NCBI RefSeq assembly: GCF_001429395.1
Contig: NZ_LMJT01000023.1
Location: 203,631-267,630 of the forward strand
DNA: 64,000 nucleotides
Reading direction: 5' to 3'
From: Allobosea sp. Root381
GTDB lineage: Bacteria > Pseudomonadota > Alphaproteobacteria > Rhizobiales > Beijerinckiaceae
This document shows positions 42,484 through 59,020 of this stretch, piece by piece; positions within the stretch are counted from its first letter, which is position 1; every line of letters begins with the position of its first letter. The notes under the pieces are model-generated. The model was not told the DNA's origin. It did no database searches and saw nothing but the letters and a program-made list of their open reading frames with translations. Made by a program: the position numbers and the translations under genes.

Positions 42484-42784
42484 GCACTCTACATAGGGGC
42501 GGGGGGGCCGCTTCACAAGGGTAAAAGGGCAGCATCATTGTCCTAATTTTCAAGCAGGCTGCCCAAAGGCTTCGCGCCACCCATTCCCGGGCAATCTCAA
42601 CGGCAGGAACCGGTGCCGCCGCCGCCGGGCTCCCGCTGCCGATTAAGCGTTGACAGCCAGTTTGGCCCTATTCAAATTCGTAGGCATACAAATGAGTTTG
42701 CGGGCTGACGCCATGCTGTCGGCATGCGACATCTGTCAAAGAGCGCTGGGGCACCCGCCACCGGGCCAGACATGGGGAACCGCG

Positions 42785-43999
42785 ATGACGATCGACCGTC
42801 GGAGTTTTCTGGCCGCCGCTTCGGCTGGCGCCACCGTATTGGCCGCCCCCTCGGTGCTGCGCGCGCAAGGCGCGGCCATCAGGATCGGCGAGATCAACAG
42901 CTACACCGCCCAGCCCGCCTTCCTGAAGCCCTATCGCCAGGCCTGGGAGCTGGCGATCGAGCAGGCCAACGCCGCCGGCGGCGTGCTCGGCCGCAAGCTT
43001 GAAACCGTGTTCCGAGACGATGGCGGCAAGCCGGAGGATGCCGTGCGCCATGCCGGCGACCTCGTCAACGCGGAGAAGGTCGACATCGTCGCAGGCGGAT
43101 TCCTCTCCAATGTCGGGCTCGCCATCGCCGACTTCGCCGCCCAGAACAAGCGGCTCTATCTTGCCTCCGAGCCGCTTTCGGACGCGCTCGTCTGGGCCAA
43201 GGGCAACCCCTACACCTTCCGCCTGCGCTGCTCGACCTACATGCAGGCGGCGATGCTGGTCGAGGAGGCGGCAAAGCTGCCCGCGAAGAAATGGGCGATC
43301 GTCGCCCCGAACTACGAATACGGCCAGTCGGCGGTGAAGTGGTTCAAGGAGCTGCTCAAGCGGGCCAAGCCCGATGTCGAGTTCGTCGCCGAACAGTTCC
43401 CGGCGCTCGGCCGCATCGATGCCGGCGCGACGGTGCAGGCGCTCGAGGCCTCCAAGCCCGACGCGATCTTCAACGTTACCTTCGCCGGCGACCTCACCAA
43501 CTTCGTCCGCCAGGGCAATACGCGCGGCCTGTTCGAGGGGCGGACCGTCGTTTCCATGCTGACCGGAGAACCGGAATATCTCGATCCGCTCGGGGCGGAG
43601 ACGCCGGTTGGCTGGATCGTCACCGGCTATCCGCATGCCGAGATCACGACGCCGGAGCACGTCAAGTTCGTCGAGGCCTACAAGGCCAAGTACAACGATT
43701 ATCCGCGCCTGGGCTCCGTCGTCGGCTACGACACCGTGCAGTCGATCAGGGCTGCGATCGCCAAGGCCGGCGCAGTCGAGAACGACAAGCTGATCGCGGC
43801 CTTCAAGGGGCTTAGCTTCCCCGGGCTCTTCGGGCCGATCACCTATCGCGCTTCCGACCACCAGTCGACGATGGGCGCCTATGTCGGCAAGACGGCGGTC
43901 AAGGGTGGCAAGGGCGTCATGATCGACTGGCGCTATGCCGATGGCGCCAACTACCTGCCGAGCGACGCCGAGGCGAAGGCGATGCGTCCGGCGGGATAA
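42785..43999 (+). CDS. Branched-chain amino-acid-type ABC transporter substrate-binding protein (Tat signal)
   Basis: Periplasmic binding protein of 404 residues, LivJ/LivK class. The N-terminus TIDRRSFLAAASAGATVLAA is a twin-arginine signal with the AQGA cleavage region. The mature part starts IRIGEINSYTAQPAFLKPY and has the type I periplasmic fold with ANAAGGVLGRKLETVFRDDGGKPEDAV. The ATG at 42785 has GGGGAA upstream and fits the signal peptide; a longer frame to 42650 does not. In this family ligands include amino acids, amides and aromatic acids. With the nearby N-heterocycle genes, a pyridine carboxylate or related compound is possible. Confidence 0.9.
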   Translation: MTIDRRSFLAAASAGATVLAAPSVLRAQGAAIRIGEINSYTAQPAFLKPYRQAWELAIEQANAAGGVLGRKLETVFRDDGGKPEDAVRHAGDLVNAEKVDIVAGGFLSNVGLAIADFAAQNKRLYLASEPLSDALVWAKGNPYTFRLRCSTYMQAAMLVEEAAKLPAKKWAIVAPNYEYGQSAVKWFKELLKRAKPDVEFVAEQFPALGRIDAGATVQALEASKPDAIFNVTFAGDLTNFVRQGNTRGLFEGRTVVSMLTGEPEYLDPLGAETPVGWIVTGYPHAEITTPEHVKFVEAYKAKYNDYPRLGSVVGYDTVQSIRAAIAKAGAVENDKLIAAFKGLSFPGLFGPITYRASDHQSTMGAYVGKTAVKGGKGVMIDWRYADGANYLPSDAEAKAMRPAG

Positions 44000-44113
44000 G
44001 GTCTTCCTCCGCTGTTCAAGATGCTTGCGCCCGATCGTGGGTTCCGGGTTCGGCCTGTCGGTCGCCCGGAATGACGAGATGGTGCGCCCAGAGGTTGCGA
44101 GACCCATAGCCGC

Positions 44114-46000
44114 ATGATCGATCTCATCCTCACGCAGACGCTGAACGGGCTGGCCTCGGCTTCCTCGCTGTTCCTGGTCGCGTCGGGACTCTCGATCATC
44201 TTCGGCGTCACGCGCATCGTGAACTTCGCCCATGGCTCGCTCTACATGCTCGGCGCCTATCTGGCCTGGACGCTGGTGACGCATTTCGGGCCCGCGGATG
44301 CGCTGGGCTTCTGGGGCGGCGTGCTGCTGGCCGCGGCACTCACCGGTCTGGTCGGCGTCGTCATCGAGGTGCTGATCCTGCGCCGGATCTACCAGGCGCC
44401 GGAGCTGTTCCAGCTGCTCGCGACCTTCGGCGTGGTGCTGATGATCCAGGACATCGCGCTTGGCGTCTGGGGCGCGGAGGACAAGCTCGGGCCGCGTGCG
44501 CCGGGCTTCAAGAGTTTCGTCGTCATCTTCGGCAACCGCTTCCCGACCTATGAGCTGTTCCTGATCGCCATCGGGCCGATCGTCCTGCTGATCCTCTGGC
44601 TTTTGTTTCAGAAGACGCGCTGGGGCACGCTTGTCAGGGCTGCGACGCAGGATCGCGAGATGGTCGGCGCGCTCGGCGTCAACCAGCGTCTGCTCTTCAC
44701 CTCCGTCTTCGCCTTCGGCTCGATGCTGGCGGGGCTCGGTGGTGCGCTCCAGCTGCCGCGCGAAGCGGTGACGCTGCACATGGACCTCGCCATGATCTCG
44801 GAGGCCTTCGTGGTCGTGGTCGTTGGCGGGCTCGGCAGCGTCACCGGCGCCTATCTCGCCGCGATCCTGATCGGCATCCTGCATGCCTTCGGCATCCTGA
44901 TCTTCCCCAAGATCACGCTGGTGCTGGTCTTCCTGGTCATGGCCGTGGTGCTCGTGGTCAAGCCCTACGGCTTGATGGGGAAGGCCCCGGTCGGCCATGC
45001 ACGCAGCCATGGCCCGGCCGCGCCGCTGATGCTGCCGGCCGATGGAGCGACCAAGATCGCCGGCCTCATCGCCCTGCTGATCCTGGCGCTCGCGCCCCTG
45101 GTGACGCCCGACCACATCCTGCTGACGCTGACCGAGCTCGTCATCTTCGCGCTCTTCGCGGCGTCGCTGCATTTCATGATGGGGCCGGGCGGCATGGTCT
45201 CCTTCGGCCACGCAGCCTATTTCGGCCTCGGCGCCTATGGCGCGGCGCTGGCCGTGAAATGGCTGGGAGCGCCGATGGAGCCGGCGCTGTTGATGGCGCC
45301 GTTCCTGGCGGGCATCGCCGGCGTCGTATTCGGCTGGTTCTGCGTCCGGCTCTCGGGTGTCTATCTGGCAATGCTGACGCTGGCCTTCGCGCAGATAGCC
45401 TGGGCGACGGCCTTCCAGTCGGTCGATCTCACCGGCGGCGACAACGGCATCCTGGGCGTCTGGCCCTCCGCCTGGGCCGCGTCGAAGGCCGCCTATTACT
45501 ATCTCTCGCTGACGATCTGCGCCGGTGCGGTCCTGCTGCTGCGTCTCACCATCTTCTCTCCCTTCGGCTATGGCCTGCGGGCCGGCCGTGACAATGCCCT
45601 GCGGGCAGAGGCGATCGGGCTCGACGTCGTCCGCCTGCAATGGGTTGCTTTCGTCGTCGCGGCCTTCTGTGCGGGCATGGCGGGGGCGCTCTTCGCCTTC
45701 TTCAAGGGCTCCGTCTTCCCGACCTATATGGCGATCCCGCGCTCGGTCGATGCGCTTCTGATGGTGCTGCTCGGCGGCGTCCAGACCGTTGCCGGCCCGA
45801 TCGTCGGTGCCTTCGCCTATGCCGGTCTCCACGAGCAGTTGATGAAGGCGACGATGTACTGGCGCTTCGTGCTCGGGCTTTCGATCGTGGTGCTCGTCGT
45901 GTTGTTCCCGCGCGGGCTGGTGGGAACAGCGCTGATGCTGCGCGAGCGCCGGCGCCGCAGGGAAAAACCCGCCGCCGCGCTGGCCGAGGCCAGCCGATGA
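44114..46000 (+). CDS. Fused LivH-LivM ABC transporter permease
   Basis: Inner-membrane protein of 628 residues that joins both permease subunits of a branched-chain-type importer. The LivH-like half (1-290) has GLSIIFGVTRIVNFAHGSLYMLGAY and the LivM-like half (about 310-610) has FMMGPGGMVSFGHAAYFGLGAYGAA and GLRAGRDNALRAEAIGLDV. Each half has around eight predicted membrane segments. There is no frameshift or stop at the junction, so the fusion is genuine. It overlaps the ATPase gene by 4 bases. The 114-base gap before it contains a fragment of a GTTCCGGG...CCCGGAATGAC repeat. Confidence 0.9.
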   Translation: MIDLILTQTLNGLASASSLFLVASGLSIIFGVTRIVNFAHGSLYMLGAYLAWTLVTHFGPADALGFWGGVLLAAALTGLVGVVIEVLILRRIYQAPELFQLLATFGVVLMIQDIALGVWGAEDKLGPRAPGFKSFVVIFGNRFPTYELFLIAIGPIVLLILWLLFQKTRWGTLVRAATQDREMVGALGVNQRLLFTSVFAFGSMLAGLGGALQLPREAVTLHMDLAMISEAFVVVVVGGLGSVTGAYLAAILIGILHAFGILIFPKITLVLVFLVMAVVLVVKPYGLMGKAPVGHARSHGPAAPLMLPADGATKIAGLIALLILALAPLVTPDHILLTLTELVIFALFAASLHFMMGPGGMVSFGHAAYFGLGAYGAALAVKWLGAPMEPALLMAPFLAGIAGVVFGWFCVRLSGVYLAMLTLAFAQIAWATAFQSVDLTGGDNGILGVWPSAWAASKAAYYYLSLTICAGAVLLLRLTIFSPFGYGLRAGRDNALRAEAIGLDVVRLQWVAFVVAAFCAGMAGALFAFFKGSVFPTYMAIPRSVDALLMVLLGGVQTVAGPIVGAFAYAGLHEQLMKATMYWRFVLGLSIVVLVVLFPRGLVGTALMLRERRRRREKPAAALAEASR

Positions 46001-46767
46001 GCGCGGCCGAGCCGATCCTCGTCGTACGGGACCTCGCCAAATCCTTCGGCGGCCTGCGCGCGGTCGACGGTGTCAGCTTCTCGGTCCTGCCCGGCCAGAT
46101 GCTCGCGCTGATCGGCCCGAACGGCGCCGGCAAGACCACCTGCTTCAACATGCTGAACGGCCAGCTCAGGCCCGATGGCGGCACGGTGCTGCTCGCGGGG
46201 CAGCCGATCACCGGGCTTAAGCCCCGCACAGTATGGCGCATGGGCGTCGGCCGTACCTTCCAGATCACCGCGACCTTCACCTCGATGACTGTGCGCGAGA
46301 ACGTGCAGATGGCGCTGATCTCCCATGCCGGCGAGATCTGGCGGCCCTTCGGCAGGGCGCGCGACTGCCATCGCGAGGCGGCCGACGCGCTGCTCGCCCA
46401 GGTCGGCATGGCTGAGCAGGCGGAGCGCGCCTGTGGCGTGCTCGCCTATGGCGACCTGAAACGGGTCGAGCTCGCGGTCGCGCTCGCCAACGACCCCAAG
46501 CTGCTGCTGATGGACGAGCCCACGGCGGGCATGGCGCCGCGCGAACGCATCGAGTTGATGGCCCTGACAGCCGGTATCGCCACTGCCCGGGGCATCGCGG
46601 TACTCTTCACCGAGCATGACATGGACGTCGTCTTTACCCATTCCGACAGCGTCATCGTGCTCGATCGCGGCCGCCTGATCGCGCATGGAACGGCCGAAGA
46701 GGTGCGCCGCGACCCGAATGTCCGTGCCGTCTATCTGGGTTCCGGCACGACCTCGGGAGGGCATTGA
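45997..46767 (+). CDS. livG: ABC transporter ATP-binding protein, LivG type
   Basis: ATPase of 256 residues. Walker A is GPNGAGKTT near residue 40, signature VLAYGDLKRVELAVALA (YGD in place of SGG, as usual in LivG), Walker B LLLMDEPTAGM, and switch histidine in FTEHDMDVVF. The start overlaps the permease stop by 4 bases and the next gene begins 2 bases after its stop. The symbol reflects the transporter class, not proof of branched-chain amino acid transport. Confidence 0.9.
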   Translation: MSAAEPILVVRDLAKSFGGLRAVDGVSFSVLPGQMLALIGPNGAGKTTCFNMLNGQLRPDGGTVLLAGQPITGLKPRTVWRMGVGRTFQITATFTSMTVRENVQMALISHAGEIWRPFGRARDCHREAADALLAQVGMAEQAERACGVLAYGDLKRVELAVALANDPKLLLMDEPTAGMAPRERIELMALTAGIATARGIAVLFTEHDMDVVFTHSDSVIVLDRGRLIAHGTAEEVRRDPNVRAVYLGSGTTSGGH

Positions 46768-46768
46768 G

Positions 46769-47479
46769 ATGGGGCCGATGCTCGAGGTCGCGGCGCTCGA
46801 CGCCTATTATGGTCGCGCCCATATCCTTCAGGGTGTCAGCTTCGCGATGAACCGTGGCGAGGTGCTGGCGCTGATGGGCCGCAACGGCGCGGGCAAGTCG
46901 ACGACCATGAAGGCCATCATGGGCCTCGTGCCGCCGGCCGGCGGAACCGTCAGCTTCGAGGGGCAGCGCCTCGATGGCCGCGAGCCCTTCGAGATCGCGC
47001 GGCTGGGCGTCGGTTACGTGCCGGAGGACCGGCGCGTCTTCTCCGAACTCAGCGTCATGGAGAATCTCTCCGTGGCCCAGCGCCCGGCACGGGCCGATGC
47101 GCCGCACTGGACGCCGGAACGGCTGTTCGCGCTCTTTCCCAATCTCGGCCGCATGCGCGACCGGGCCGGCGGGGCGATGTCGGGGGGCGAGCAGCAGATG
47201 CTGACCATCGCCCGCACCTTGATGGGAAATCCGAAGCTCGTCCTCCTCGACGAACCCTCGGAGGGGCTTGCGCCAGTCATCGTCGAGGAGATGGCGAAGA
47301 CGATCCTGGCACTGAAGAGCGAGGGGCTGACCGTACTGATCTCGGAGCAGAACCTGCATTTCGCCGGCAATGTCGCTGACCGCGCCGCCATCATCGAAAA
47401 GGGTGTCATCCGTTTCACCGGGACGATGGACGAGCTCAAGGCGAACGAGGCGATCCGGACTCAGTATCTTTCGGTGTGA
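46769..47479 (+). CDS. livF: ABC transporter ATP-binding protein, LivF type
   Basis: Second ATPase of the importer, 236 residues. Walker A is GRNGAGKST, signature AMSGGEQQMLTIARTL, Walker B LVLLDEPSEGLAPV, and the switch histidine is replaced by asparagine-leucine-histidine in SEQNLHF, as is normal in LivF. The ATG at 46769 follows the livG stop by one base and has GGGAGG about 10 bases upstream; upstream in-frame ATG at 46685 lies within livG. The operon ends here, with a large inverted repeat just downstream. Confidence 0.9.
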   Translation: MGPMLEVAALDAYYGRAHILQGVSFAMNRGEVLALMGRNGAGKSTTMKAIMGLVPPAGGTVSFEGQRLDGREPFEIARLGVGYVPEDRRVFSELSVMENLSVAQRPARADAPHWTPERLFALFPNLGRMRDRAGGAMSGGEQQMLTIARTLMGNPKLVLLDEPSEGLAPVIVEEMAKTILALKSEGLTVLISEQNLHFAGNVADRAAIIEKGVIRFTGTMDELKANEAIRTQYLSV

Positions 47480-47495
47480 CCCGCGCATCGTCATG

Positions 47496-47614
47496 GCGAA
47501 CGTAGCGAAGCAATCTCGGAACACTTTGCATTCAGGCTGACGCGCGAGAACCGCAGATGTTTCCGCATCGCTGCAAATGGAACTAGCCGTTCTGGACTGC
47601 TTCGCTACGTTCGC
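47496..47614. repeat. Large inverted repeat between livF and the UPF0280 gene
   Basis: Perfect 17-base arms, GCGAACGTAGCGAAGCA at 47496-47512 and its complement at 47598-47614, enclose about 85 bases. Elements with GAACGTAGCGAAGCAAT arms are widespread in Hyphomicrobiales. The right arm overlaps the last codons and the stop codon of the convergent UPF0280 gene, so this repeat encodes that protein's C-terminus. It may also act as a transcription barrier between convergent genes. Confidence 0.75.
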
Positions 47615-48465
47615 AATGCCGGGGTGCTGCCGACGCCGCCGACGCTGCGCCATTCGCCGGCCAGCGCCACCAGGGCGCCCTCGATCAGGCCGTCGCGCAG
47701 CAGCCCCTCGGCCGTGCGCACCCCCGCGGCCAATGCTGCTGCGATCGCCTCCGGGGGCAGGGACCCGACATCCACCGTGACCAGCAGGTCCCGGAGATCG
47801 CTGTCGGGATCGAGCTCGCGCGCCGGCCGGCGCCGTATCGACGCATCCTGCACATTCGTCGCATTGGCAATGACGGTCGCCGCGGCATCCGCTTCGGCAG
47901 CGCTGCGCGCCAGCACCGTGACGGCATCGGCTATGCCCCGCGAGAAGGACCGGCCGCGCCAGCCGCTGGTCGCGATCCCGCGCACATGCTGCGACACGTC
48001 GAGGCGGATGAAGCCTTCCGGGCGTGCACGCGCAAGCGACGGCACGACGCCGATATCGAGCGGATGCCGTGCCGTGAGATGGACCGCGATGTCCCCGCCA
48101 TTGTTGACATAGGCCCGTTCCAGCCGGGGCGCGCGTGCCAGCATCGCGGTCATGACGGTGTCGGCTACGGCGCCTGCGACCGCTGCCATCGGGGTGATGT
48201 ACTGGGCGCGAAAAGCCCAGCAGGCGCGCGCCATGCGCTGCGCCGTCGCGCCTTTCAGGGCAGGCGGCTGGGCTGCCAGTGGCTGGCGCAGCGTGCGCAA
48301 TTCTCCGGCGAGTTCCGCCAGCAATCCCTCGAACGCGTCCTCCGCAGCGGCATAGGCTCGCTCGATCTCGGATGGGCCGCCGAAGGCCGCGATCACGAGA
48401 TCGCTCGGCCCTTCCTGCAGATGCAGCCGGTTGCCGGGAAGACGGGCGATGCGGTGCGTTTTCAT
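47605..48465 (-). CDS. UPF0280 family protein
   Basis: Protein of 286 residues with the UPF0280/ApbE-like pattern: AAVAGAVADTVMTAML near residue 96, ERAYVNNGGDIAVHL near residue 116, GIATSGWRGRSFSRGIADAVTVLA near residue 165 and AAATVIANATNV near residue 195. Biochemical role is not established; the fold relates to FMN-transferring ApbE, but the key residues differ. The gene lies in the same orientation as the hydroxylase-reductase gene, 151 bases downstream of it, and such genes recur near 6-hydroxynicotinate-reductase-type genes as far as I recall. The last few residues (PALRT) and the stop lie in a repeat arm. Confidence 0.85.
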   Translation of the reverse strand: MKTHRIARLPGNRLHLQEGPSDLVIAAFGGPSEIERAYAAAEDAFEGLLAELAGELRTLRQPLAAQPPALKGATAQRMARACWAFRAQYITPMAAVAGAVADTVMTAMLARAPRLERAYVNNGGDIAVHLTARHPLDIGVVPSLARARPEGFIRLDVSQHVRGIATSGWRGRSFSRGIADAVTVLARSAAEADAAATVIANATNVQDASIRRRPARELDPDSDLRDLLVTVDVGSLPPEAIAAALAAGVRTAEGLLRDGLIEGALVALAGEWRSVGGVGSTPALRT

Positions 48466-48616: not shown

Positions 48617-51600
48617 CTACCCGGCTTCCCGCCAAAACGGCCAAGGGTTTTCGGCCTCTGCTCTCTCGATCCGCGCCTGCCCGCCATGGTCGCGCACCAC
48701 GTCCTCGACCGGGACGATCTCCGCCGCATGGCCGCCGGCTGCGAGATAGAGCGCGCGCGGCAGGGTGAACTCGATCGGCGCGACGATCGCCGGCGTCGGC
48801 ACGTAGCCGAAGGCATTCTTCGGCATGCGCAGCACATCGACCATCACGGTGATGCCACCGCCCGGCCAGAGATGGACCGGCGCGCCGCCCATCGTGACCC
48901 GTGTCGTGCCCGATTGTACGGAACGCGTCAGCTGTACCGGATTCTCGGTCACGCCCGCGCGCAGCGAGCCGCCGGCACCGGCCATGAACAGCACGGTGCA
49001 GAGCGACGGCTCGCAGTTCTCGCCGATGCGCTCGACCACCTTCCGCACGGCGCCGGGCATTTCGGCTTCGACCGGGACGAGGTTCTCGTCGAGCACGCAG
49101 TAGAGCGAATCCTCGCCGGTCGTGGAGGTCATCAAAAGCCGCATGCCGGGCCAGGCCAGCGCAGGGTCGATCTTCTGGATGATCGAGAGCGGCTCGGTGA
49201 TGTCGGTGCCGCCCCAGCCGAGGCCGGGCTCGGCGACCTGGAAATAGCGGCCCGGCGTCGATTTGCGCCCGCGCACGCGGATACCGGCGGGGCGCATGTC
49301 GAGCACGCGGCCGGCCTGATGTTCGGTCAGCACGCCGGTGATGTGGTCGTCGACGACGATGACCTCGTCGACATGGCCTTGCCACTGCTTGGCGAAGATG
49401 CCGATCGTGGCCGAGCCGCAGCCGACCCTCATACGCTTCTCCGGGTTGCCGTCCACGACGGGCGCGCGGCCCGCCTGCACGACGACGCCATGGCCGCCGT
49501 CGATCGTCAGCTCGATCGGCTCGCCATTACAGAGCTTCAGCATGGTCTCGCAGGTCGTGTTGCCTTCCTTCTTCGAGCCGCCGGTGAGGTGGCGCACGCC
49601 GCCGATGGAAAGCATCTGCGAACCGTATTCAGCCGTCGTGACATGGCCGACCTGCTCGCCGTTCGCCCTGACGGCAGCGGTCTCGGGGCCGAGATGGCGA
49701 TCGGTGTCGATCTTCACCTTGACGCCGCAATAGGAGAAGATTCCCTCGGTGACCACGGTGACCGTATCGACGCCCTCATGCTGCGACGAAACGATGAAGG
49801 GCGCCGGCTTGTAGTCGGGATAGGTCGTGCCCGCGCCAATGCCGGTGACGAAGATGCGGTTCGCCGGCAGCGCGCTGCCGTCCCAATCCTCGGCGTTCCC
49901 GGCGAAGGGCACGACAGGCTCGCCTTCGGCCACTGCCTCCGCGAGCAATACGACCGGATCGGTCCTGATCAGCAGGCCGTCTTCGTTGGCATAGCGCGAG
50001 CAGGCGCCGGCGCGGCCGGGCCGGATGCGGCAGAGCACGGGACAGGCGTCGCAGCGCAGGATGCCGTCCTCGCCCTCGGCGACGCCGAACTGGCGCGAGC
50101 GTTTGGCGAGGGCGGCGTTTTCCATTCTGCCAGGTGAACCCTCATCCTTCGAGACGGCCGCCGAAGCGACCTCCTCAGGATGAGGGCCGAGGAGAGATTC
50201 AGCGTCCTTCGCGCGCAACAACTCCCACAACCGGTGCGGCAGCACCGGGACCTGGCGCGGCGTTACGCCGGCCGCGTGCCGGATCGCGCCGAGGATCGCC
50301 GGTGCCGTCGGCACCAGGGCCGGCTCGCCGATGCCCTTGGCACCGGAGGGGCCGAGCGGTTCGGGGTCCTCGACCAGGATGATGTCGATCGGCGGCACGT
50401 CTCCCGCGGTCGGGATCAGGTAATCGTGCAGGTTCTCGGTGCGGCCGGGGAGATATTCCTCCATCAGCGCGAGCCCGATACCCTGGGCGATGCCACCATG
50501 GATCTGCCCCTCGACGAGCATGGGGTTGATCGCCTTGCCGACATCATGGGCTGCGACGATGCGGTTGAGCCTGATCGTGCCGAGATCGAGATCGACATCG
50601 AGGGAGGCGATCTGCGCGGCGAAGCCATAGGTCGCGTAGGGCACGCCCTGGCCCTTCTCGTCGAGAGGCACTGTCGGCGGGTCGAAATTCCCGATCCCCT
50701 CCAAAACGATACCATTTTTATTTGCCGGCAAATCACTAAGCTCGATTGTCGTGCCGACTCCGTTTTCCTCGATTCGGACGACCGTGCCTTGCAGCGTCAG
50801 TTTCGCCGAGGGGCCCGCATTGGTCAGCCGCAGGATCTTCGATCGCAAAGCGCCGGCTGCGTTCTCGGCCGCCTTGCCGGAGACGAAGGTCTGGCGGGAG
50901 GCCGAGGTCTTGCCCGCGTCGGCGGTTCGCGCCGTGTCTCCGACCACCAGCTCGAACTGTTCGACCGGCAGGCCCAGAGCATCGGCGGCGATCTGCGTCA
51001 GCACCGTGGTTGAGCCCTGTCCGATGTCGACGGCGCCGTTCCAGAAGGTGAGCTTGCCGTCGCGGGAGAGCGTCACGCGCATGGTCGAGGGGTTCGACAT
51101 GCCGGTGTTGCCGATGCCGTACCACATGCAGCCGATGCCGACGCCCCGCCGTATCCGGCGCCCACCGCCGTTGAACGCGGCGGCGTCGGCCAGCAGATCC
51201 TGCCAATGCGGCCTCAGCGCCTCGAGGCATTCTGCCAGGCCAGTGCTTGCCTGGAGGACCTGGCCGCAAGGCGTTGCGTCGCCGGCGCGGATCGCGTTGA
51301 GCAGGCGAAATTCCAGCCGGTCAAGGCCGCAGGCCGCAGCCAGGTCGTCGAACAGACTCTCCTGCGCGATCGCCGCCTGCGGCACGCCGAAGCCGCGAAA
51401 GGCACCGGAGGGCGGGCCGTTGGTGTAGATCGCCCGCGACAGGTTGCGCACATGCGGCACCTTGTACGGGCCCGTCGCATGGACCGGCACGCGGCCCGCC
51501 ACCGTCGGCCCCCAGGAGGAATAGGCGCCAGTGTCGAAATCGCCGTCCATCGCATAGGCGACGAGCTTGCCTGCTGCGTCGCAGGCGGCCTTCGCCTGGA

Positions 51601-52990
51601 TCGAGGAAGGGTGGCGCTTGGTCGAGGAAACCATCGACTCGATGCGCCCGAAGACGCAGCGCACCGGCCGGTCGAGCAGCCAGGCCGCGACCGCGAGCAT
51701 CGGCTGCAGCGAGACGTCGAGCTTGCCGCCGAAGCCGCCGCCGCAGGCCGAGGGCAGGATGCGGACGGCGTCGAGCGGAAGCCCGATGACACGCGCGACC
51801 TCGTCGCGGTCCATATAAGGCGCCTGGGTGCAGGCGAAGACCTCGATGGTCTGGCCTATACGCCGTGCATAGCCGGCTTCGGGTTCGATGTAGGCGTGCT
51901 CGACGAAGCCGGTTTCGAAGACGCCTGACGCGACATGCGCGGCCTCCGCGAAGCCCGTCTCGACATCGCCGCGCTCGACGCGGCCGCGGGTCAGCACATT
52001 GTCAAGTACGAAGTCGTGCAGCGCGAAGGCGGTCTCGGCGAGAGCCGCCTTGCTTCCGATCATCGGGGGCAGCGGTTCCCACGCGATCGGGACCTCATCG
52101 GCGCGCACGGCCTCGACGGCCTCCTTCTCGCCGACGATCGCGAGCGCGCATTCGCCGCGATAGCGTGTTTCGCCGGTCGAGAACACCGGCTGGTCCTTGA
52201 GATGCGGGTAGATGCCGAAGGAATTCTCGCCGGGCACGTCTTTCGCCGTGAAGATGCGCACAAGTCCCGGACGGGCCGCGACGAAGGCGTCGAGGTCGCC
52301 CAGCGTGAAGCGGGCGCGCGGATGCGGCGAGCGCAGCGCGCGCAGCCACAGAGCGTCGCCGGGCGCGGCATCGGCACCGTAGATCTCCGTCCCCGAGATT
52401 TTCGGCTCGCCGTCGAGGCGGGCGATGCGCGCGCCGATCGCCGGCTGTCCCGCCTCCGGCGGCTGGCGGAACGCCACTTCGCCATCCAAGAAGCGATGTG
52501 CGTTACGAACCGCCTCGACGATCTTAAGGTAGCCGGTGCAGCGGCAGAGCACGCCACCCAGCGCATCCAGTGTCTCGCGCTCGCCCGGCTGCGGATTGCG
52601 CTTCAGCAGGTCGTAGCCCGCCATCAGCATGCCGGGCGTACAGATACCGCATTGCGCGGCTCCGTGAAAATGGAAGGAGCGTTGCAGGGCGGTACCCAGC
52701 GCGTCGTGGCCAAGACCTTCCACAGTAACCACGTCGCTGCCGGCAATCTGTCCGACTGGGACGAGACAGGCACAGGCCTGCGCCTGGTCGATCAGGACGG
52801 TGCAGGCGCCGCAATCGCCGGCATCGCAGCCGACCTTGGTCCCGGTCGCGCCGAGATCGCTGCGGAGCGCTTCGCTGAGGCGCGTGTCGGGAGCGACGTC
52901 GAGTTGGACCTCGCGGCCGTTTAGGCGGAAGCCGACGGCCTTCTGCCGCACTGGGCTGGCGGGCAGGGCGGCGCGATCATGGAGGTTCAC
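48617..52990 (-). CDS. Fused molybdenum hydroxylase ([2Fe-2S] + Moco) and 6-hydroxynicotinate-reductase-like protein
   Basis: One frame of 1457 residues. Residues 18-165 form the xanthine-dehydrogenase-type [2Fe-2S] unit (C55, C60, C63, C75; then CGICTPG and CRC). About 170-930 is the Moco domain, with GGGFGGK and the catalytic glutamate in GAKGIGEPAL. Residues 936-951 (PHPEEVASAAVSKDEG) are a translated palindromic repeat. From M956 on, 502 residues match 6-hydroxynicotinate reductase, with cysteines C980, C983, C987 and C997 (CX2CX3CX9C). I chose GTG at 52990: GGAGG is 7 bases upstream and it overlaps the FAD-subunit stop. The protein would hydroxylate, then reduce, an N-heteroaromatic ring. 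Whether the chain stays whole is unknown. Confidence 0.85.
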   Translation of the reverse strand: MNLHDRAALPASPVRQKAVGFRLNGREVQLDVAPDTRLSEALRSDLGATGTKVGCDAGDCGACTVLIDQAQACACLVPVGQIAGSDVVTVEGLGHDALGTALQRSFHFHGAAQCGICTPGMLMAGYDLLKRNPQPGERETLDALGGVLCRCTGYLKIVEAVRNAHRFLDGEVAFRQPPEAGQPAIGARIARLDGEPKISGTEIYGADAAPGDALWLRALRSPHPRARFTLGDLDAFVAARPGLVRIFTAKDVPGENSFGIYPHLKDQPVFSTGETRYRGECALAIVGEKEAVEAVRADEVPIAWEPLPPMIGSKAALAETAFALHDFVLDNVLTRGRVERGDVETGFAEAAHVASGVFETGFVEHAYIEPEAGYARRIGQTIEVFACTQAPYMDRDEVARVIGLPLDAVRILPSACGGGFGGKLDVSLQPMLAVAAWLLDRPVRCVFGRIESMVSSTKRHPSSIQAKAACDAAGKLVAYAMDGDFDTGAYSSWGPTVAGRVPVHATGPYKVPHVRNLSRAIYTNGPPSGAFRGFGVPQAAIAQESLFDDLAAACGLDRLEFRLLNAIRAGDATPCGQVLQASTGLAECLEALRPHWQDLLADAAAFNGGGRRIRRGVGIGCMWYGIGNTGMSNPSTMRVTLSRDGKLTFWNGAVDIGQGSTTVLTQIAADALGLPVEQFELVVGDTARTADAGKTSASRQTFVSGKAAENAAGALRSKILRLTNAGPSAKLTLQGTVVRIEENGVGTTIELSDLPANKNGIVLEGIGNFDPPTVPLDEKGQGVPYATYGFAAQIASLDVDLDLGTIRLNRIVAAHDVGKAINPMLVEGQIHGGIAQGIGLALMEEYLPGRTENLHDYLIPTAGDVPPIDIILVEDPEPLGPSGAKGIGEPALVPTAPAILGAIRHAAGVTPRQVPVLPHRLWELLRAKDAESLLGPHPEEVASAAVSKDEGSPGRMENAALAKRSRQFGVAEGEDGILRCDACPVLCRIRPGRAGACSRYANEDGLLIRTDPVVLLAEAVAEGEPVVPFAGNAEDWDGSALPANRIFVTGIGAGTTYPDYKPAPFIVSSQHEGVDTVTVVTEGIFSYCGVKVKIDTDRHLGPETAAVRANGEQVGHVTTAEYGSQMLSIGGVRHLTGGSKKEGNTTCETMLKLCNGEPIELTIDGGHGVVVQAGRAPVVDGNPEKRMRVGCGSATIGIFAKQWQGHVDEVIVVDDHITGVLTEHQAGRVLDMRPAGIRVRGRKSTPGRYFQVAEPGLGWGGTDITEPLSIIQKIDPALAWPGMRLLMTSTTGEDSLYCVLDENLVPVEAEMPGAVRKVVERIGENCEPSLCTVLFMAGAGGSLRAGVTENPVQLTRSVQSGTTRVTMGGAPVHLWPGGGITVMVDVLRMPKNAFGYVPTPAIVAPIEFTLPRALYLAAGGHAAEIVPVEDVVRDHGGQARIERAEAENPWPFWREAG
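50139..50186. repeat. Palindromic repeat inside the hydroxylase-reductase gene
   Basis: A 48-base element with perfect 10-base arms CCCTCATCCT (50139-50148) and AGGATGAGGG (50177-50186). Its length is a multiple of three and the frame runs through without a stop. Repeats with CCTCATCCTGAGGAG are well known between genes in Hyphomicrobiales; one inside a coding frame at a domain border is unusual. Confidence 0.8.
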
Positions 52991-53871
52991 GCCGCCACCT
53001 CCAGAGTGGATGAAAGCAACCCGGCCAGCGCCCGGCGCACCAGGATGAGCGCGGCCTCGCGCCGATAGGCGGCGCTGGCGCGGACGTCGTCGATCGGCGC
53101 GAGCGGGGCGAGATCGGCCGGTGACACGCTCTCGGCCAATGCGGGGCCGGCGAGTTCTCCTGTCAGCCTTGCCTCCAGCGCGGCCAGCCGCTGCGGCGCG
53201 GCCGAGCACGCACCGACCGCGATCCTGAGCGCCGTGATCCGCCGTTCCGCATCGGTTGCGACCAGGGCAGCGACGGATGCGATCGAGATCACGAGGTAAT
53301 TGCGCGCACCGAGCTTGAGGAAGGCCGAGCGCGCCTGCGCGGGCTGAGCGGGGATATGGATCGCGACCAGGATTTCATCGGCTGCAAGGACGGTACGGCG
53401 ATTGCCGAGAACGAGCTCCGCGAGGGGGAAGCGCCTGCGGCCGCGCAGGCTCGCCAGCTCGACCTGCGCATCCAGTGCCAGCAGCGGCGGCACACCGTCG
53501 GCAGCCGGCGACGCGTTGCAGAGATTGCCCCCAACCGTGGCGCGATTCTGGATCTGCATTCCGCCGATCTGCCGGCTCGCCTGCTTCAGCGCATCGAAGG
53601 CCGACGGCAGCGCGGCGCTTGCGATCGCGCTCCAGGTCACGCCGGCTCCGATGCGCGTGCCGCCTGGGTCATGGCTGATGCCGGCGAGCTCTGGCACAGC
53701 GCCGAGATCGAGCACGTCTCGATCGATGGGCTGGAGCCAGGCGGCACGAGCGGTGCGGACGGGATAGATGTCGGTTGCTCCGGCCAGCAGCGTCAACGGA
53801 GGAGAGACCGGCTCCGCCGCGAGCAGCCCCACAGCCTCGTCCAGTGAATGCGGTCGAAGATAGCGCGTCAT
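52987..53871 (-). CDS. FAD-binding (medium) subunit of the molybdenum hydroxylase
   Basis: Protein of 294 residues of the xanthine dehydrogenase subunit M / CoxM family. The FAD contacts are visible as TLLAGATDIYPV near residue 27 and MQIQNRATVGGNLCNASPAADGVPPLLAL near residue 99. It takes electrons from the [2Fe-2S] domain of the large protein encoded next and passes them to NAD or another acceptor. GGAGGGGAG lies just upstream of the ATG, and its stop overlaps the next start by 4 bases. An operator-like palindrome lies at 53917-53934, so the MarR-type regulator probably controls it. Confidence 0.9.
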   Translation of the reverse strand: MTRYLRPHSLDEAVGLLAAEPVSPPLTLLAGATDIYPVRTARAAWLQPIDRDVLDLGAVPELAGISHDPGGTRIGAGVTWSAIASAALPSAFDALKQASRQIGGMQIQNRATVGGNLCNASPAADGVPPLLALDAQVELASLRGRRRFPLAELVLGNRRTVLAADEILVAIHIPAQPAQARSAFLKLGARNYLVISIASVAALVATDAERRITALRIAVGACSAAPQRLAALEARLTGELAGPALAESVSPADLAPLAPIDDVRASAAYRREAALILVRRALAGLLSSTLEVAA

Positions 53872-53978: not shown

Positions 53979-54494
53979 TTAGTCGAGGCGCCCGAGCAGC
54001 CCGAGCAGGCGCTCCGCCTCCTCGCGCGAGAGCGGCGACAATGTCGCCGCCGTTATCGCCCGTGCCTTCTCGATCAGTGCCGGCATCGCCTCCAGTCCCT
54101 TGGACGTGAGGCGTACGCGCACGCGGCGCTGGTCGTCCGGGTCCGGGCGCCGCTCGACCATGCCGCGCTCGGCCAGCCGCGCGATCACGCCCTTGATCGT
54201 GGCCGGGTCCATCGCCGTCATCCGGCCGAGCTGGTTCTGTGAAATCTCCTCGCCGCCGCCGAGCTTGGCCATCGCCGCGAACTGCGTCGGTGTCGGCCCA
54301 TCATCGCCCATGATACGCTGGAAGATCGCGATGTGACGCTGCTGCGCCCGCCGCATCAGGAAGCCGACCTGCTCGTCGAGGACATAGCCAGCTGCAGCGG
54401 GATTCGGCCCGCCCGCGGCCTTGCGCTGGCGCGGCATGGCTTCGGTCGGGGCTCCGCTCACGGCCTCTGCGGTGCTGGTGGAACTGCTCGTCAT
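53979..54494 (-). CDS. MarR-family transcriptional regulator
   Basis: Regulator of 171 residues with the MarR winged helix: GPTPTQFAAMAKLGGGEEISQNQLGRMTAMDPATIKGVIARL pattern near residues 65-110 and the wing RPDPDDQRRVRVRLTSKG near residue 118. It lies between the FAD-subunit gene and the divergent amidohydrolase gene. Matching palindromes occur on both sides of it, so it probably represses both arms of the catabolic cluster until a substrate or intermediate binds. The first 30 residues are low-complexity and the true start may be later. Confidence 0.9.
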   Translation of the reverse strand: MTSSSTSTAEAVSGAPTEAMPRQRKAAGGPNPAAAGYVLDEQVGFLMRRAQQRHIAIFQRIMGDDGPTPTQFAAMAKLGGGEEISQNQLGRMTAMDPATIKGVIARLAERGMVERRPDPDDQRRVRVRLTSKGLEAMPALIEKARAITAATLSPLSREEAERLLGLLGRLD

Positions 54495-54602: not shown

Positions 54603-54654
54603 TCGCCGCTTGTCCTGCCGCTCGGGGCAGGCCCGCTCGAAGACGGAGAAGCAG

Positions 54655-55845
54655 ATGGCTCACGACGTCGCGGCGGGACCCGCCAAGGGCAAGTTGGTGG
54701 TCCGCAATATCGGGCTCCTACTCTCGGGCGATCTGGCGAGGCCGATCCTCGACGCCGACGCGATCGTTGCGGTCGATGGCCGGATCAAGGCCATCGGCCG
54801 GGCCGCCGATCTCGATCTGGACAGCGCCGACGTTACGATCGATGCCAAGGGCTCCCCGGTCTCGCCCGGCCTGATCGATTCCCACTGCCATCCCGTCTTT
54901 GGAGACTGGACGCCGCGCCAGAACCAGCTTGGCTGGATCGAGATGGGCGTTAACGGCGGCGTGACCACCCTGGTCTCGGCCGGCGAGGTGCATCTGCCCG
55001 GCCGGCCCAAGGATGCGATCGGCGTCAAGGCGCTGGCCGTCACCGCCCAGCGCTGCTTCCAGAACTTCCGACCGGCGGGAGCCAAGGTCATTGCCGGTGC
55101 GCCCGTGGCCGAGCTTGATTTCGGCCGCGAGGTCTTCGAGGAGCTGAAGGCGCTTGGCATCCGCCATATCGGCGAGATCGGGCTCGGCACCGTCGCCAAG
55201 GGGCAAGATGCCAAGCGCGTCACCACCTGGTGCCGCGAGATCGGCCTCGAGACGATCATGCATACCGGAGGCCCGTCTATCGCCGGGTCGCATTTCGTCA
55301 ACAAGGACGATGTGCTGGAAGCCCAGCCCGATGTGGTGAGCCACATCAATGGCGGCCCGACCTCGATCGCTCATGCCGATATCCGCGTGCTCTGCGAGCA
55401 GGCGAGGGGGGCGCTGGAAGTCGTCCACAACGGCAATGAGAAATCGGCTCTGGTCGCGCTGGAAGCGGCGCTCGCCGCCGGGCGCCTCGCGGATGTCCTG
55501 ATCGGTACCGATGCCCCCGCGGGCTCGGGCGTGCAGCCCAACGGGGTGCTGCGGATGATCACGCTGCTGGCGAGCCTCGGCGGGCTTCCGGCCGAGCAAG
55601 CCTTCTGCCTCGCGACCGGTAATGTCGCCCGGAAGCGCTCACTCGATGCCGGGTTGATCGCGGAGGGCTATCCGGCCGATTTCGTCTTCCTGGACAAGCC
55701 GCAGCATTCGTCCGCCAAGGATCTCCTTGAAGCTGTGTCGCTCGGCGACATTCCGGGCATCGGCATGGTGGTAATCGACGGGCTGGTCCGGACGGGGCGC
55801 TCCCGCTCGACGCCGCCGGCCAACACCGCCCCGACGGTGGGCTGA
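54655..55845 (+). CDS. Amidohydrolase, enamidase-like
   Basis: Metal-dependent amidohydrolase of 396 residues. The first metal site is HxH in LIDSHCHPVFGDW near residue 80, followed by a conserved lysine region (GAKVIAGAPVAELDFG), histidines in RHIGEIGLG and ETIMHTGG, and the late aspartate in VLIGTDAPAGSG. This order matches enamidase of Eubacterium barkeri, which opens 1,4,5,6-tetrahydro-6-oxonicotinate to 2-formylglutarate and ammonia. That step follows 6-hydroxynicotinate reductase, whose homologue is encoded nearby. GGAGAA precedes the ATG at 54655. Other cyclic-amide hydrolases are alternatives. Confidence 0.82.
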   Translation: MAHDVAAGPAKGKLVVRNIGLLLSGDLARPILDADAIVAVDGRIKAIGRAADLDLDSADVTIDAKGSPVSPGLIDSHCHPVFGDWTPRQNQLGWIEMGVNGGVTTLVSAGEVHLPGRPKDAIGVKALAVTAQRCFQNFRPAGAKVIAGAPVAELDFGREVFEELKALGIRHIGEIGLGTVAKGQDAKRVTTWCREIGLETIMHTGGPSIAGSHFVNKDDVLEAQPDVVSHINGGPTSIAHADIRVLCEQARGALEVVHNGNEKSALVALEAALAAGRLADVLIGTDAPAGSGVQPNGVLRMITLLASLGGLPAEQAFCLATGNVARKRSLDAGLIAEGYPADFVFLDKPQHSSAKDLLEAVSLGDIPGIGMVVIDGLVRTGRSRSTPPANTAPTVG

Positions 55846-55857
55846 CGGAAGCGCGCC

Positions 55858-56445
55858 ATGACCGGACTCATCGATATCCGCCGTATCCAGACTTCCGTGG
55901 AGGAGATCTTCCACGAGTTCGGGCCCGCGCCGGGCCGCACCGAGCGCATCGCCTCGGTCTGCGCCGTGCTGACCAACCCTTATGCCGGCCGCTACGAGCC
56001 CGACATCATGCCGATGATGGAGGCCTTGAAGGGCGCAGGCCTCGAAATGGCGACGCGCTGCCTGAAGGCGCTGGGCGGCGATCCGAAGACGGTCGAGGGA
56101 TACGGCAAGGGCGCCGTCGTGGGCTCAGCCGGCGAACTCGAGCATGGCGCGCTCTGGCATGTGCCGGGCGGTTACGCGATGCGCGAAATCCTCGGCAACG
56201 CCAAGGCGATCGTTCCTTCCACCAAGAAAGTGGCGGGGCCGGGGGCGCGCATCGACATCCCCGTCACCCATATCAATGCCTGCTATGTTCGCAGCCATTT
56301 CGGCGCCGTCGAGATCGGTGTTCCCGGCTCGCCTCAGGCCGACGAGCTGGTCTTCATCCTGGTGATGACCACGGGCGCGCGCATCCATGAGCGCGTCGGC
56401 GGGCTGCGTGCCGACCAGATCAGCGTCTGGGACGGGCAGCGGTGA
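55858..56445 (+). CDS. Amino acid synthesis family protein (AA_synth), copy 1
   Basis: Protein of 195 residues of the PF06684-type family, whose biochemical role is not firmly known. Shared features are NPYAGRYEPDIMPMME near residue 39, GKGAVVGSAGELEHGALWH near residue 84 and VPSTKKVAGPGARIDIPVTHINACYVRSHF near residue 118. It follows the amidohydrolase by 12 bases and is probably in its operon. A paralogue is encoded 154 bases downstream. In this setting it may act on a ring-opened intermediate; that is inference from position only. Confidence 0.82.
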   Translation: MTGLIDIRRIQTSVEEIFHEFGPAPGRTERIASVCAVLTNPYAGRYEPDIMPMMEALKGAGLEMATRCLKALGGDPKTVEGYGKGAVVGSAGELEHGALWHVPGGYAMREILGNAKAIVPSTKKVAGPGARIDIPVTHINACYVRSHFGAVEIGVPGSPQADELVFILVMTTGARIHERVGGLRADQISVWDGQR

Positions 56446-56599: not shown

Positions 56600-57184
56600 A
56601 TGCCCGCGAACATCCGCAAGATCCTGACGCAGGTCGATGAAACCCTGACCGAAGCCGGCAAGGCGGTCGCGCCGCCGACGCGCCGCGCCGTGGCCGTCGC
56701 CGTGATCGCCAACCCGTTCAGCGGCCGCTATCAGGAGGACCTGTCGGAGCTGACCGAGATCGGCGTCGAGCTCGGCGACCTGCTGACGAAGCGCTGCCTC
56801 GCGGCGCTCGGCATCGAGCCGGCGCAGGCCGAGAGCTTCGGCAAGGCCGCGATCGTGGGCGAGGGCGGCGAGCTGGAGCATGCCGCCGCGATCCTGCATC
56901 CGAAGCTCGGCACGCCGGTTCGCGCCGCGCTCGGCAAGGGGCCTGCGCTCATTCCGTCGGCCAAGAAGCGCGGCGGGCTCGGGACCCCGATCGACGTGCC
57001 CCTCGGACACAAGGACGCAGCCTTCGTGCGCTCGCATTTCGATGCGGTCGAGGTTCGGGTCACGGACGCGCCGCGCGCCGGCGAGATCCTGGTCGCGATC
57101 GCCGTCACCGATTCAGGCCGGCCGCTGCCGCGCATCGGCGGGCTGACGAAGGATCAGATAAAGGGCGAGGACGGGTTGCGTTGA
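56600..57184 (+). CDS. Amino acid synthesis family protein (AA_synth), copy 2
   Basis: Second member of the family, 194 residues. It aligns along its whole length with the gene before it: NPFSGRYQEDLSELTE, GKAAIVGEGGELEHAAAILH, IPSAKKRGGLGTPIDVPLGHKDAAFVRSHF. Identity is moderate, so the duplication is not recent, and the two may form a heteromer or act on successive steps. It keeps the operon orientation but is separated by a repeat element of about 93 bases. Function unknown. Confidence 0.82.
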   Translation: MPANIRKILTQVDETLTEAGKAVAPPTRRAVAVAVIANPFSGRYQEDLSELTEIGVELGDLLTKRCLAALGIEPAQAESFGKAAIVGEGGELEHAAAILHPKLGTPVRAALGKGPALIPSAKKRGGLGTPIDVPLGHKDAAFVRSHFDAVEVRVTDAPRAGEILVAIAVTDSGRPLPRIGGLTKDQIKGEDGLR

Positions 57185-57481: not shown

Positions 57482-58903
57482 TCAACCGCCGAGCGACATC
57501 GTCAGTGGCGGCTTGACCTCGGCCGGCAGCGGCGAGGTGTAGCCTTCCGTGCCGAGGCGCTTCTTGTGATCGGCCTTGGCCGCGGCCATCAGTTCGGGAT
57601 CGAGCAGCACGGCGGCACCCGTGGCCGCCATCGCCTTGGCGACATGCACCATCGCCTTGTGCGCGGCGGGCGACTTGCCCTGCGCGACCACCTGCCAGGT
57701 ATGGAACGGCGTGCCGAGCGCGACCGTCGGCGCATGCGCCTGCACCGTCGGGACGGCCCAGCTGACGTCGCCGATATCGGTCGAGCCGATCGCCGGGTTG
57801 CGCTTGGCGTCGAGCGGCACGGTGAAGTCGGCCAGCGGCGCGCCCGTATCCTCCAGGCCGATCGTCCGCCAGATCGAGGCGATCTCCTGCGGCTGCAGCG
57901 TCTTGCGGATATCGGCGGCGAAGGCGCGGTCGGAATCATCGAAATGCGGCGGGCCGAGCTCTTCCATCACGCCATGCATGGCCTGCTCCAGCGGTGTGTT
58001 GCCGAGCAGATCGGAAACAGCGCTGACGATGCGCATCTCCATCTTGGTTTCGGTCATCAGCGCAGCGCCTTCGGCGATCTTCTTGACGCGCTGGACGAGC
58101 TCCAGCATGCCGCGCAGGTCGCGAGCACGGATCGAGTAGCGCACGCGGGCATGGGCCTGGACGACGTTCGGCGCGATGCCGCCGGTGTCGAGCAAGGCGT
58201 AGTGTACACGCGCATCGCTCGGCATGTGCTCGCGCATGTAGTTGACGCCGACATTCATAAGCTCGACGGCATCGAGGGCACTGCGCCCGAGATGCGGGGC
58301 CGCGGCGGCATGGGCGGTGCGGCCGGTGAAGACGAAATCGGCGCGGGTGTTGGCGAGCGCCAGCGGCGGCGCCACTTCCCAGAAGCTCGACGGGTGCCAG
58401 GAGATCGCCACATCGGCATCGTCGAAGGCGCCGGCGCGGACCATGAAGGCCTTGGCGGCGCCGCCTTCCTCGGCCGGGCAGCCATAATAGCGCACGCGGC
58501 CGGGGATCTTGTTCTCCGCCAGCCAGTCCCGCATCGCGACGGCGGCGAGAAGCGCAGCCGAGCCGAGGAGGTTATGGCCGCAGCCATGGCCATGGCCGCC
58601 GTCCTCGATCGGCTTGTGGCTGGCGACGCCGGCCTCCTGCGACAGGCCGGGCAGGGCATCGTACTCGCCCATGAAAGCGATCACCGGCCCGCCCTCGCCG
58701 GCCTCGCCGATCACGGCGGTCGGGATATCCGCGACGCCTTTGGTGACGCGGAAACCCTGGTGCTCGAGCTCCGCGGCATGCTCGGCTGAGGAGCGAGTCT
58801 CAGTGTAGCAGACCTCGGGCATGCCCCAGACCCGGTCGCTCAGCGCGATCAGCCGCTCCTTGTTCGCATCGACGTGGCGCCAGAGATCGTTTCGATTGTC
58901 CAT
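57482..58903 (-). CDS. M20-family metallo-amidohydrolase, AbgB/aminoacylase-like
   Basis: Zinc-type hydrolase of 473 residues. Visible features are VIAFMGEYDALPGLSQEAG near residue 72, the metal cluster GHGHGCGHNLLGSAALLAA near residue 98, YYGCPAEEGGAAKAFMVRAGAF near residue 134 and the dimerisation domain with GRTAHAAAAPHLGRSALDAVELM near residue 188. It resembles AbgB (p-aminobenzoyl-glutamate hydrolase subunit). The ATG at 58903 has AGGAC 5 bases upstream and fits the family start; the longer frame does not. It may hydrolyse an amide linked to the imported compound, or be unrelated to the neighbouring operon, from which it is separated by a repeat. Confidence 0.87.
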   Translation of the reverse strand: MDNRNDLWRHVDANKERLIALSDRVWGMPEVCYTETRSSAEHAAELEHQGFRVTKGVADIPTAVIGEAGEGGPVIAFMGEYDALPGLSQEAGVASHKPIEDGGHGHGCGHNLLGSAALLAAVAMRDWLAENKIPGRVRYYGCPAEEGGAAKAFMVRAGAFDDADVAISWHPSSFWEVAPPLALANTRADFVFTGRTAHAAAAPHLGRSALDAVELMNVGVNYMREHMPSDARVHYALLDTGGIAPNVVQAHARVRYSIRARDLRGMLELVQRVKKIAEGAALMTETKMEMRIVSAVSDLLGNTPLEQAMHGVMEELGPPHFDDSDRAFAADIRKTLQPQEIASIWRTIGLEDTGAPLADFTVPLDAKRNPAIGSTDIGDVSWAVPTVQAHAPTVALGTPFHTWQVVAQGKSPAAHKAMVHVAKAMAATGAAVLLDPELMAAAKADHKKRLGTEGYTSPLPAEVKPPLTMSLGG

Positions 58904-59020
58904 GATGGTCCTGCCTTGGTCAGGCCGGCATAAGACCAAGGGCTGCCCGATCCGTCCAGCCGCATCGCGCATGGCTGGGGCGATTTCCGGGCGCTACCAT
59001 GCGTAAGATCGGCAGAGGAA

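Follow-up and report, generated by a model that had tools for sequence, protein, structure and literature searches.

A probable single-chain fusion of a molybdenum hydroxylase and a 6-hydroxynicotinate-reductase-like enzyme through an in-frame palindromic element in Bosea

In 'Rosetta stone' fusions of operon neighbours, consecutive enzymes of a pathway are joined in one chain. REPs, including CGTC-tagged alphaproteobacterial families, are described in excerpts of PMC3733652 as short, dispersed and often paired in opposite orientation; they are mostly intergenic and near the 3′ ends of ORFs, though a number lie in frame within coding sequences, those of uvr genes among them. REPs near stop codons are reported for E. 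coli (PMC12306157, excerpt). Rickettsia palindromic elements (RPEs) of 105–146 bp lie in frame in protein genes (excerpts of PMC2229807 and PMC10969869), and repeats can be joined to pieces of conserved domains, as in a spacer plus RU-3 that follows part of an acetyltransferase (PMC2229807, excerpt). On the enzyme side, the nicotinate cluster of Bradyrhizobiaceae SG-6C covers, according to the excerpted text of PMC3511419, the first three steps of the pathway and also encodes an ABC transporter and two conserved proteins of unknown role; its 6-hydroxynicotinate reductase homologue has 42% identity to the E. barkeri enzyme. Accounts of in-frame palindromic inserts treat them as passengers inside single genes.

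Positions 48617–52990 (minus strand) of the window, the whole stretch of 64,000 nucleotides that was analysed, read through as a single stop-free frame of 1457 codons, in which a [2Fe–2S]/Moco hydroxylase is followed by a palindromic element and a module whose type carries the annotation 6-hydroxynicotinate reductase (HNR-like). A preliminary description of this DNA had proposed that one such frame joins a hydroxylase and a reductase, and both the 1457-residue frame and its domains bear this out. In our moderately confident reading, the ORF encodes a true fusion, in a single chain, of two enzymes that act one after the other in an N-heterocycle degradation operon, with in-frame insertion of the element as the fusing event. 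The features of the fused frame are as follows.

48617..52990, minus: fused ORF, [2Fe–2S]/Moco hydroxylase and HNR-like reductase, 1457 aa (no internal stop; domains)
52505..52927, minus: Fer2 and Fer2_2 [2Fe–2S] domains, residues 22–162 (Pfam)
50393..52393, minus: hammerhead and molybdopterin-binding domains of the hydroxylase, residues 200–866 (Pfam)
50139..50186, minus: 48-bp palindromic element, short single-hairpin form, translated as linker (residues 935–951)
50123..50125, minus: ATG of M956, the sole in-frame ATG, GTG or TTG between the element and the Cys motif; its ribosome site is weak
48620..50125, minus: HNR-like module, residues 956–1457 (relatives and alignment A1)
50000..50053, minus: Cys motif CDACPVLC...GAC of the HNR-like module, a probable Fe–S site (alignment A1)
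Translated sequence at the junction of the two modules: PHPEEVASAAVSKDEG

Within residues 22–866 are Pfam matches to Fer2, Fer2_2, Ald_Xan_dh_C, MoCoBD_1 and MoCoBD_2. Two [2Fe–2S] domains together with Moco-binding domains, and an FAD subunit encoded separately by the preceding gene, place this part of the chain among the molybdenum hydroxylases of the xanthine dehydrogenase family. From the xanthine dehydrogenase superfamily, 20 NCBIfam models hit it below their cut-offs (best 608 against 830), and a named NCBIfam kind, such as Se-dependent XDH or pucD, was not assigned because the curated cut-off is not reached. The computed mass of the whole chain is 153.6 kDa, that of the hydroxylase to residue 930 is 97.9 kDa and that of the reductase from M956 is 53.3 kDa.

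The HNR-like module has at least 447 confirmed genomic relatives, of which the best 80 were kept. Pfam yielded nothing above cut-off for it, nor did NCBIfam at E 0.01; no PDB fold matched it (best E 0.028, with a predicted model of mean pLDDT 77.8), and a PDB sequence search found nothing useful. Invariant in all 43 sequences of alignment A1 (43 of 57; left out were L052, which has a stop, and 13 others) are C25, C28, C32 and C42 of the module. The module is widespread and well conserved, with a mean column identity of 72% across the same 43 sequences. Pairwise dN/dS (not branch-specific, and covering the HNR-like module and only the last 430–480 codons of the hydroxylase) is 0.08–0.16 in both modules, the same for fused and split pairs and without internal stops; the coding sequences thus bear the mark of ordinary purifying selection on both modules.

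Around the fused frame lies a set of genes that, judged by description, resembles that of the SG-6C and E. barkeri nicotinate cluster (PMC3511419, excerpt), for which the excerpted text mentions no fusion. The neighbouring genes in the window are listed here.

42650..47479, plus: branched-chain-type ABC transporter genes (binding protein, permease, two ATPases)
47605..48465, minus: PRK04334 protein, which we take to be UPF0280; distant ApbE similarity below cut-off
52987..53871, minus: FAD-binding subunit of the hydroxylase; its stop overlaps the GTG of the fusion by 4 nt
53979..54494, minus: MarR-family regulator
54610..55845, plus: amidohydrolase, candidate enamidase
55858..56445, plus: AA_synth (PF06684) protein 1
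56600..57184, plus: AA_synth (PF06684) protein 2
57482..58972, minus: M20 amidohydrolase/peptidase, of doubtful membership in the cluster

In flanks of at most 6 kb around the best 80 of the at least 447 relatives, UPF0280 recurs at 76 loci, the FAD subunit at 68, AA_synth at 51–52, the ABC permease at 33, the MarR regulator at 27, the amidohydrolase at 15 and the M20 protein at none. A literature search on UPF0280 found nothing. The gene context that marks a 6-hydroxynicotinate reductase, namely a hydroxylase, an amidohydrolase (candidate enamidase) and a transporter, is present in the window, and by analogy the pathway is probably degradation of an N-heterocycle of nicotinate type. The substrate would be 6-hydroxynicotinate or a similar compound, an assignment that derives from the published annotation of the similar cluster (PMC3511419, excerpt).

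The element between the two modules reads CCCTCATCC...GGATGAGGG. That the linker is a 48-base palindromic repeat, as the preliminary description had it, holds, but its equation with exactly residues 936–951 does not: the element is 16 codons long and lies one base out of codon register. An 80-nt stretch containing it folds at −40.3 kcal/mol. With a relaxed arm pattern, 39 copies were found in this genome and none with the reversed control, so the palindrome is not a product of chance; copies elsewhere number 157 in G003, 2 in G010, 116 in G031, 195 in G006 and 25 in G019 (controls 0), and a stricter pattern occurs in 30 of the 67 genomes of the genus. Dispersed, in many copies and with conserved arms, the element has the properties of a REP or palindromic repeat family. 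Its long form is a cloverleaf-like palindrome of about 108–129 bp, as cut here, with an outer stem and three arms. In 13 long copies, 9 of 45 predicted pairs show compensatory changes, and every one of these pairs belongs to the two side hairpins. Because copies were selected by the arm pattern, the arms are invariant in part through that choice, from which the side-hairpin covariation is exempt.

Like intragenic REPs (PMC3733652, excerpt), the window element is a short dispersed palindrome with some copies in frame in ORFs. GCGTCTCGAAGGATG contains CGTC, the letters that tag one end in the CGTC-tagged families, of which the element is at most a candidate member. It differs from the REPs that the excerpts of PMC3733652 place inside single ORFs in standing at the border of two genes whose ORFs are joined, and the outer stem and three arms of its long form also set it apart. 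From RPEs it differs in sequence and host; in the excerpted accounts, RPEs and MITE-like repeats sit within a single gene or at its end (PMC2229807, PMC10969869), and here the element is a bridge between two whole enzymes. It was not classed as a REP mobilised by a RAYT transposase, since no Y1_Tnp gene was found in its own genome (no match to Y1 transposase, PF01797; control positive in 5 of 14).

All 39 copies are open in two forward frames, none in the third and 37–38 in each reverse frame, so that the element can be read through in five of six frames. Most copies lie outside coding-like frames: among the 30 of 39 for which coding context was scored, three sit in open frames whose codon use looks coding to either side, namely the window copy and those in a UvrC ORF and in an ORF that encodes a glycosyltransferase family 28 C-terminal domain. 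The UvrC copy (Pfam UvrC domains; L166, G000:C34:133165-133202) is an in-frame long form (PHSGEAASAAVSKDAP...QDEGS), in agreement with published REPs in uvr genes; the glycosyltransferase copy (L156, G000:C12:256247-256283) is an in-frame short form (PHPEERRRRASKDEG).

The start signals bear on whether the frame is read as one chain or two, and they are as the preliminary description had stated them, good at GTG 52990 and poor at M956. GTG 52990, which overlaps the FAD-subunit stop by 4 nt, follows a strong Shine–Dalgarno site of −10.6 kcal/mol, a value reached at 0.6% of in-frame positions. The site before M956 (50125) is weak, at −6.1 kcal/mol (reached at 14% of positions), and the remaining in-frame start codons in the hydroxylase tail of the window have −3.0 to −6.8. 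It could be argued that the long frame misleads and that the reductase is mainly produced separately from M956, two enzymes as usual: this ATG is near the expected N terminus of the reductase, G031 has start codons with good sites, and in Phreatobacter (L014) a very good site precedes an ATG. We regard this as improbable, owing to the contrast with the split relatives of the main clade, where 13 of 13 have a GTGA or ATGA stop/start overlap of 4 nt after a ribosome site of −8.9 to −12.2, and to the position of M956, which is out of alignment with the start of the split relatives. The split junctions all read (G/A)TGAACGA (13/13), and the junction alignment gives the window sequence as AAGGACGCTGAATC, with the stop not in frame and the start absent; this alignment holds 13 of 17 main-clade junctions, the other four (L097, L098, L100 and L108) having been missed by the pattern and read separately.

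The linkers of the other fused genes bear on the same point. In G003, the only two GTG codons (−1.7 and −3.8) are inside the hydroxylase end motif and no ATG, GTG or TTG comes afterwards, so that a single chain is close to obligatory there, which also argues against separate production of the reductase from an internal start. The Bosea sp. Leaf344 (G010) linker has one GTG (−1.7). In G031, GTG and TTG codons follow strong ribosome sites (−10.9 to −11.4), and a separate reductase could therefore still be produced; repeat-like stretches in this linker (L113/L134) supply the ribosome-site-like sequence before the in-frame GTG and TTG. For the window, these signals argue for one chain made from the fused ORF, and some separate reductase could arise from M956.

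How common the fused state is was judged in the genus to which the genome collection assigns the window, where the closest named relatives among the matches listed are Bosea. An HNR-like match was found in 40 of 67 genomes, with loci given for 30. Comparison of orthologous loci, proposed in the preliminary description, gave separate genes at 18 of these 30 loci and fused genes at four (window, G003, G010 and G031); the other eight are without an adjacent hydroxylase in the stretch examined, which for L114 is due to the end of the contig. The HNR-like open frames of the other 10 genomes, at 499–531 aa, fall short of the length that a fusion would need. Within the genus, fused genes are in the minority.

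Outside the genus it is rarer still. A hydroxylase lies upstream within 3 kb at 71 of the 80 named loci (the best 80 of at least 447); three of the 80 are Bosea (L010, L011 and L012, the last identical to G055), and among the remaining 77 the hydroxylase lies within this distance at 68, one of which, Phreatobacter L014, has it in frame. A Fisher test of 4/22 (Bosea) against 1/68 gives p 0.012, a value that ignores relatedness. In family and order samples, which overlap (a match in 81 and in 91 genomes, respectively, out of 397 each), every frame of at least 1290 aa outside the genus was checked, and the only in-frame case was G573, taken as Phreatobacter L014. Because L014 keeps an ATG and a strong ribosome site (−11.0), it is not counted as an obligatory fusion. 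Several candidates were discarded: the 1533-aa frame of G250 (L126) is an assembly-gap artefact with NN at the junction and a broken frame; 8 of 10 rows flagged as fused among the named loci are short out-of-frame overlaps, with only L011 and L014 in frame; long frames in G203, G238, G070, G189, G636, G521, G654, G540, G572, G617 and G480 proved split; and the long frame of G151 has no adjacent hydroxylase.

The preliminary description had reasoned that relatives fused through an unrelated linker would speak against a repeat-made fusion, and such relatives exist. Leaf344 is fused through a linker with no recognisable repeat (the best other match there, GC-rich, has E 9e-4), and G031 through a different repeat family (GTGGGGAGGNGTTGGNGGTGGGG), whose tested motif occurs at 18 places in G031, the linker included. 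This element is thus not needed for fusion. The idea of a fusion made by a repeat draws support from the separate genes of most relatives and from the dispersed palindrome at the position of their stop/start overlap, but it does not hold generally.

A gene tree was made from 41 of 51 loci, the other 10 being without an adjacent hydroxylase. Fused genes are scattered in it, with five state changes, of which three (one of them in Phreatobacter) are forced by starred branches; these changes may be gains or losses. A single clade of the five fused Bosea rows (four genomes) is rejected (p-AU 0.0005). Of the pairings, window with G003 as sisters is weakly rejected (p-AU 0.021) and G010 (Leaf344) with G031 is borderline (0.047); G031 with G003 (0.063) and window with G031 (0.18) are not rejected. 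Since the tree rejects one fused clade, Leaf344 and G031 may be independent fusions, and as such are no disproof that a repeat drove the event in the lineage of the window. Grouping all split genes in one clade is weakly rejected (p-AU 0.025), as is grouping them with the window (0.042), whereas grouping them with G003 is not (0.23); the last arrangement leaves the window outside, and the branching of the window is accordingly unsure.

The elements themselves suggest a different history. Those of the window and G003 have a common inner stem, GGTCGC/GCGGCC, found in none of the other 26 inner-stem types (28 types and 55 occurrences in the set, some in overlapping loci), and equal flanks, with nine residues from LWELLR to PHP and seven from DEGS to ALA. 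Near variants, GGCCGC/GCGGCC, occur in the UvrC copy and in G051. The common stem and position hint at one ancestral insertion, in conflict with the gene tree. The bases just before the element are dissimilar in the two genomes, and sliding-window identity in 300-column windows revealed no wider tract shared between them.

This likeness of the two elements is one of the points in favour of an alternative history, in which the ancestor of the Bosea main clade already had the fused gene and later lineages returned to separate genes, in part through recombination. The two earliest-branching main-clade lineages (Leaf344 and G031) are fused, and minimal label changes may be gains or losses. We nevertheless find this doubtful: apart from Phreatobacter L014 the other groups of the tree are split, both split groups have a similar junction (TGAACGA, with the reductase start MNE(L/I)), and the single split clade is weakly rejected, at the p-AU given above. 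From the tree, fusion would have arisen two to four times in Bosea if reversals are excluded, and otherwise fewer times with reversals.

For the window lineage, insertion of the element is a plausible fusing event, and its course may have been as follows. In the ancestor, the hydroxylase and reductase genes would have shared a 4-nt overlap, with translation of the two probably coupled. In this lineage the overlap has gone, and with it the stop of the hydroxylase, the start of the reductase and the Shine–Dalgarno site of the latter; a palindromic element now occupies the gap in an open frame. An element landing on the stop/start overlap would remove both signals at once. With stop and start removed together, the downstream enzyme would be kept only by in-frame survivors, and such survival would be easy for an element open in five of six frames.

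The order of events may also have been the reverse, fusion coming first by loss of the overlapping stop and start and the element landing later in a tolerant linker. Leaf344, with no recognisable repeat, and G031, with another repeat family, imply that the linker tolerates different fillers, and the element family enters other ORFs in frame. This order is possible but rather unlikely in our estimate, because two of the four fused loci have the element at the former junction and because five other genomes have it at the next gene border, downstream of HNR. There it lies directly behind the gene (G019, G031, G013, G046 and G047), followed by UPF0280 in G019, G031, G013 and, by reading, G047; in G046 the contig ends.

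The locus is best filed as a variant both of the known palindromic inserts and of the known operon gene fusions. Like 'Rosetta stone' fusions, it joins consecutive pathway enzymes in one chain; it departs from them in that at least two linkers hold a recognisable dispersed repeat and that the fused genes are not one clade within the genus. Among the papers listed for REPs and gene fusion, Bosea palindromic repeats, palindromic linkers and Rickettsia element fusions, no title or abstract opening concerns a REP-made fusion or a repeat as bridge between two fused operon enzymes, which is weak evidence of absence. A further, speculative step would be that the cloverleaf-like elements of Bosea are recurrent gene-joining linkers acting through operon stop/start overlaps and that the hydroxylase could here hand the hydroxylated ring directly to the reductase; we advance it tentatively.

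An element that bridges two enzymes, in a genus that also has split and differently bridged members, amounts to a natural experiment on how fusions begin. It bears also on whether repeats help fusion and on whether joining a hydroxylase to the next enzyme alters a pathway, and it warns annotators that fused forms are possible for overlapping operon genes.

Two further loci show the variety of arrangements among the relatives. No hydroxylase or FAD-subunit match was found within 18.5 kb around the HNR-like gene of G013 (L135, G013:C1:1645000-1663500), which keeps this gene (86%) along with UPF0280, the amidohydrolase and AA_synth; the link between the reductase and this hydroxylase is thus not universal. 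Short tandem-like units (GATATTGGCGACA...) extend the tail of the hydroxylase immediately before the stop/start overlap in the B. psychrotolerans group (L098, L101, L103 and L106).
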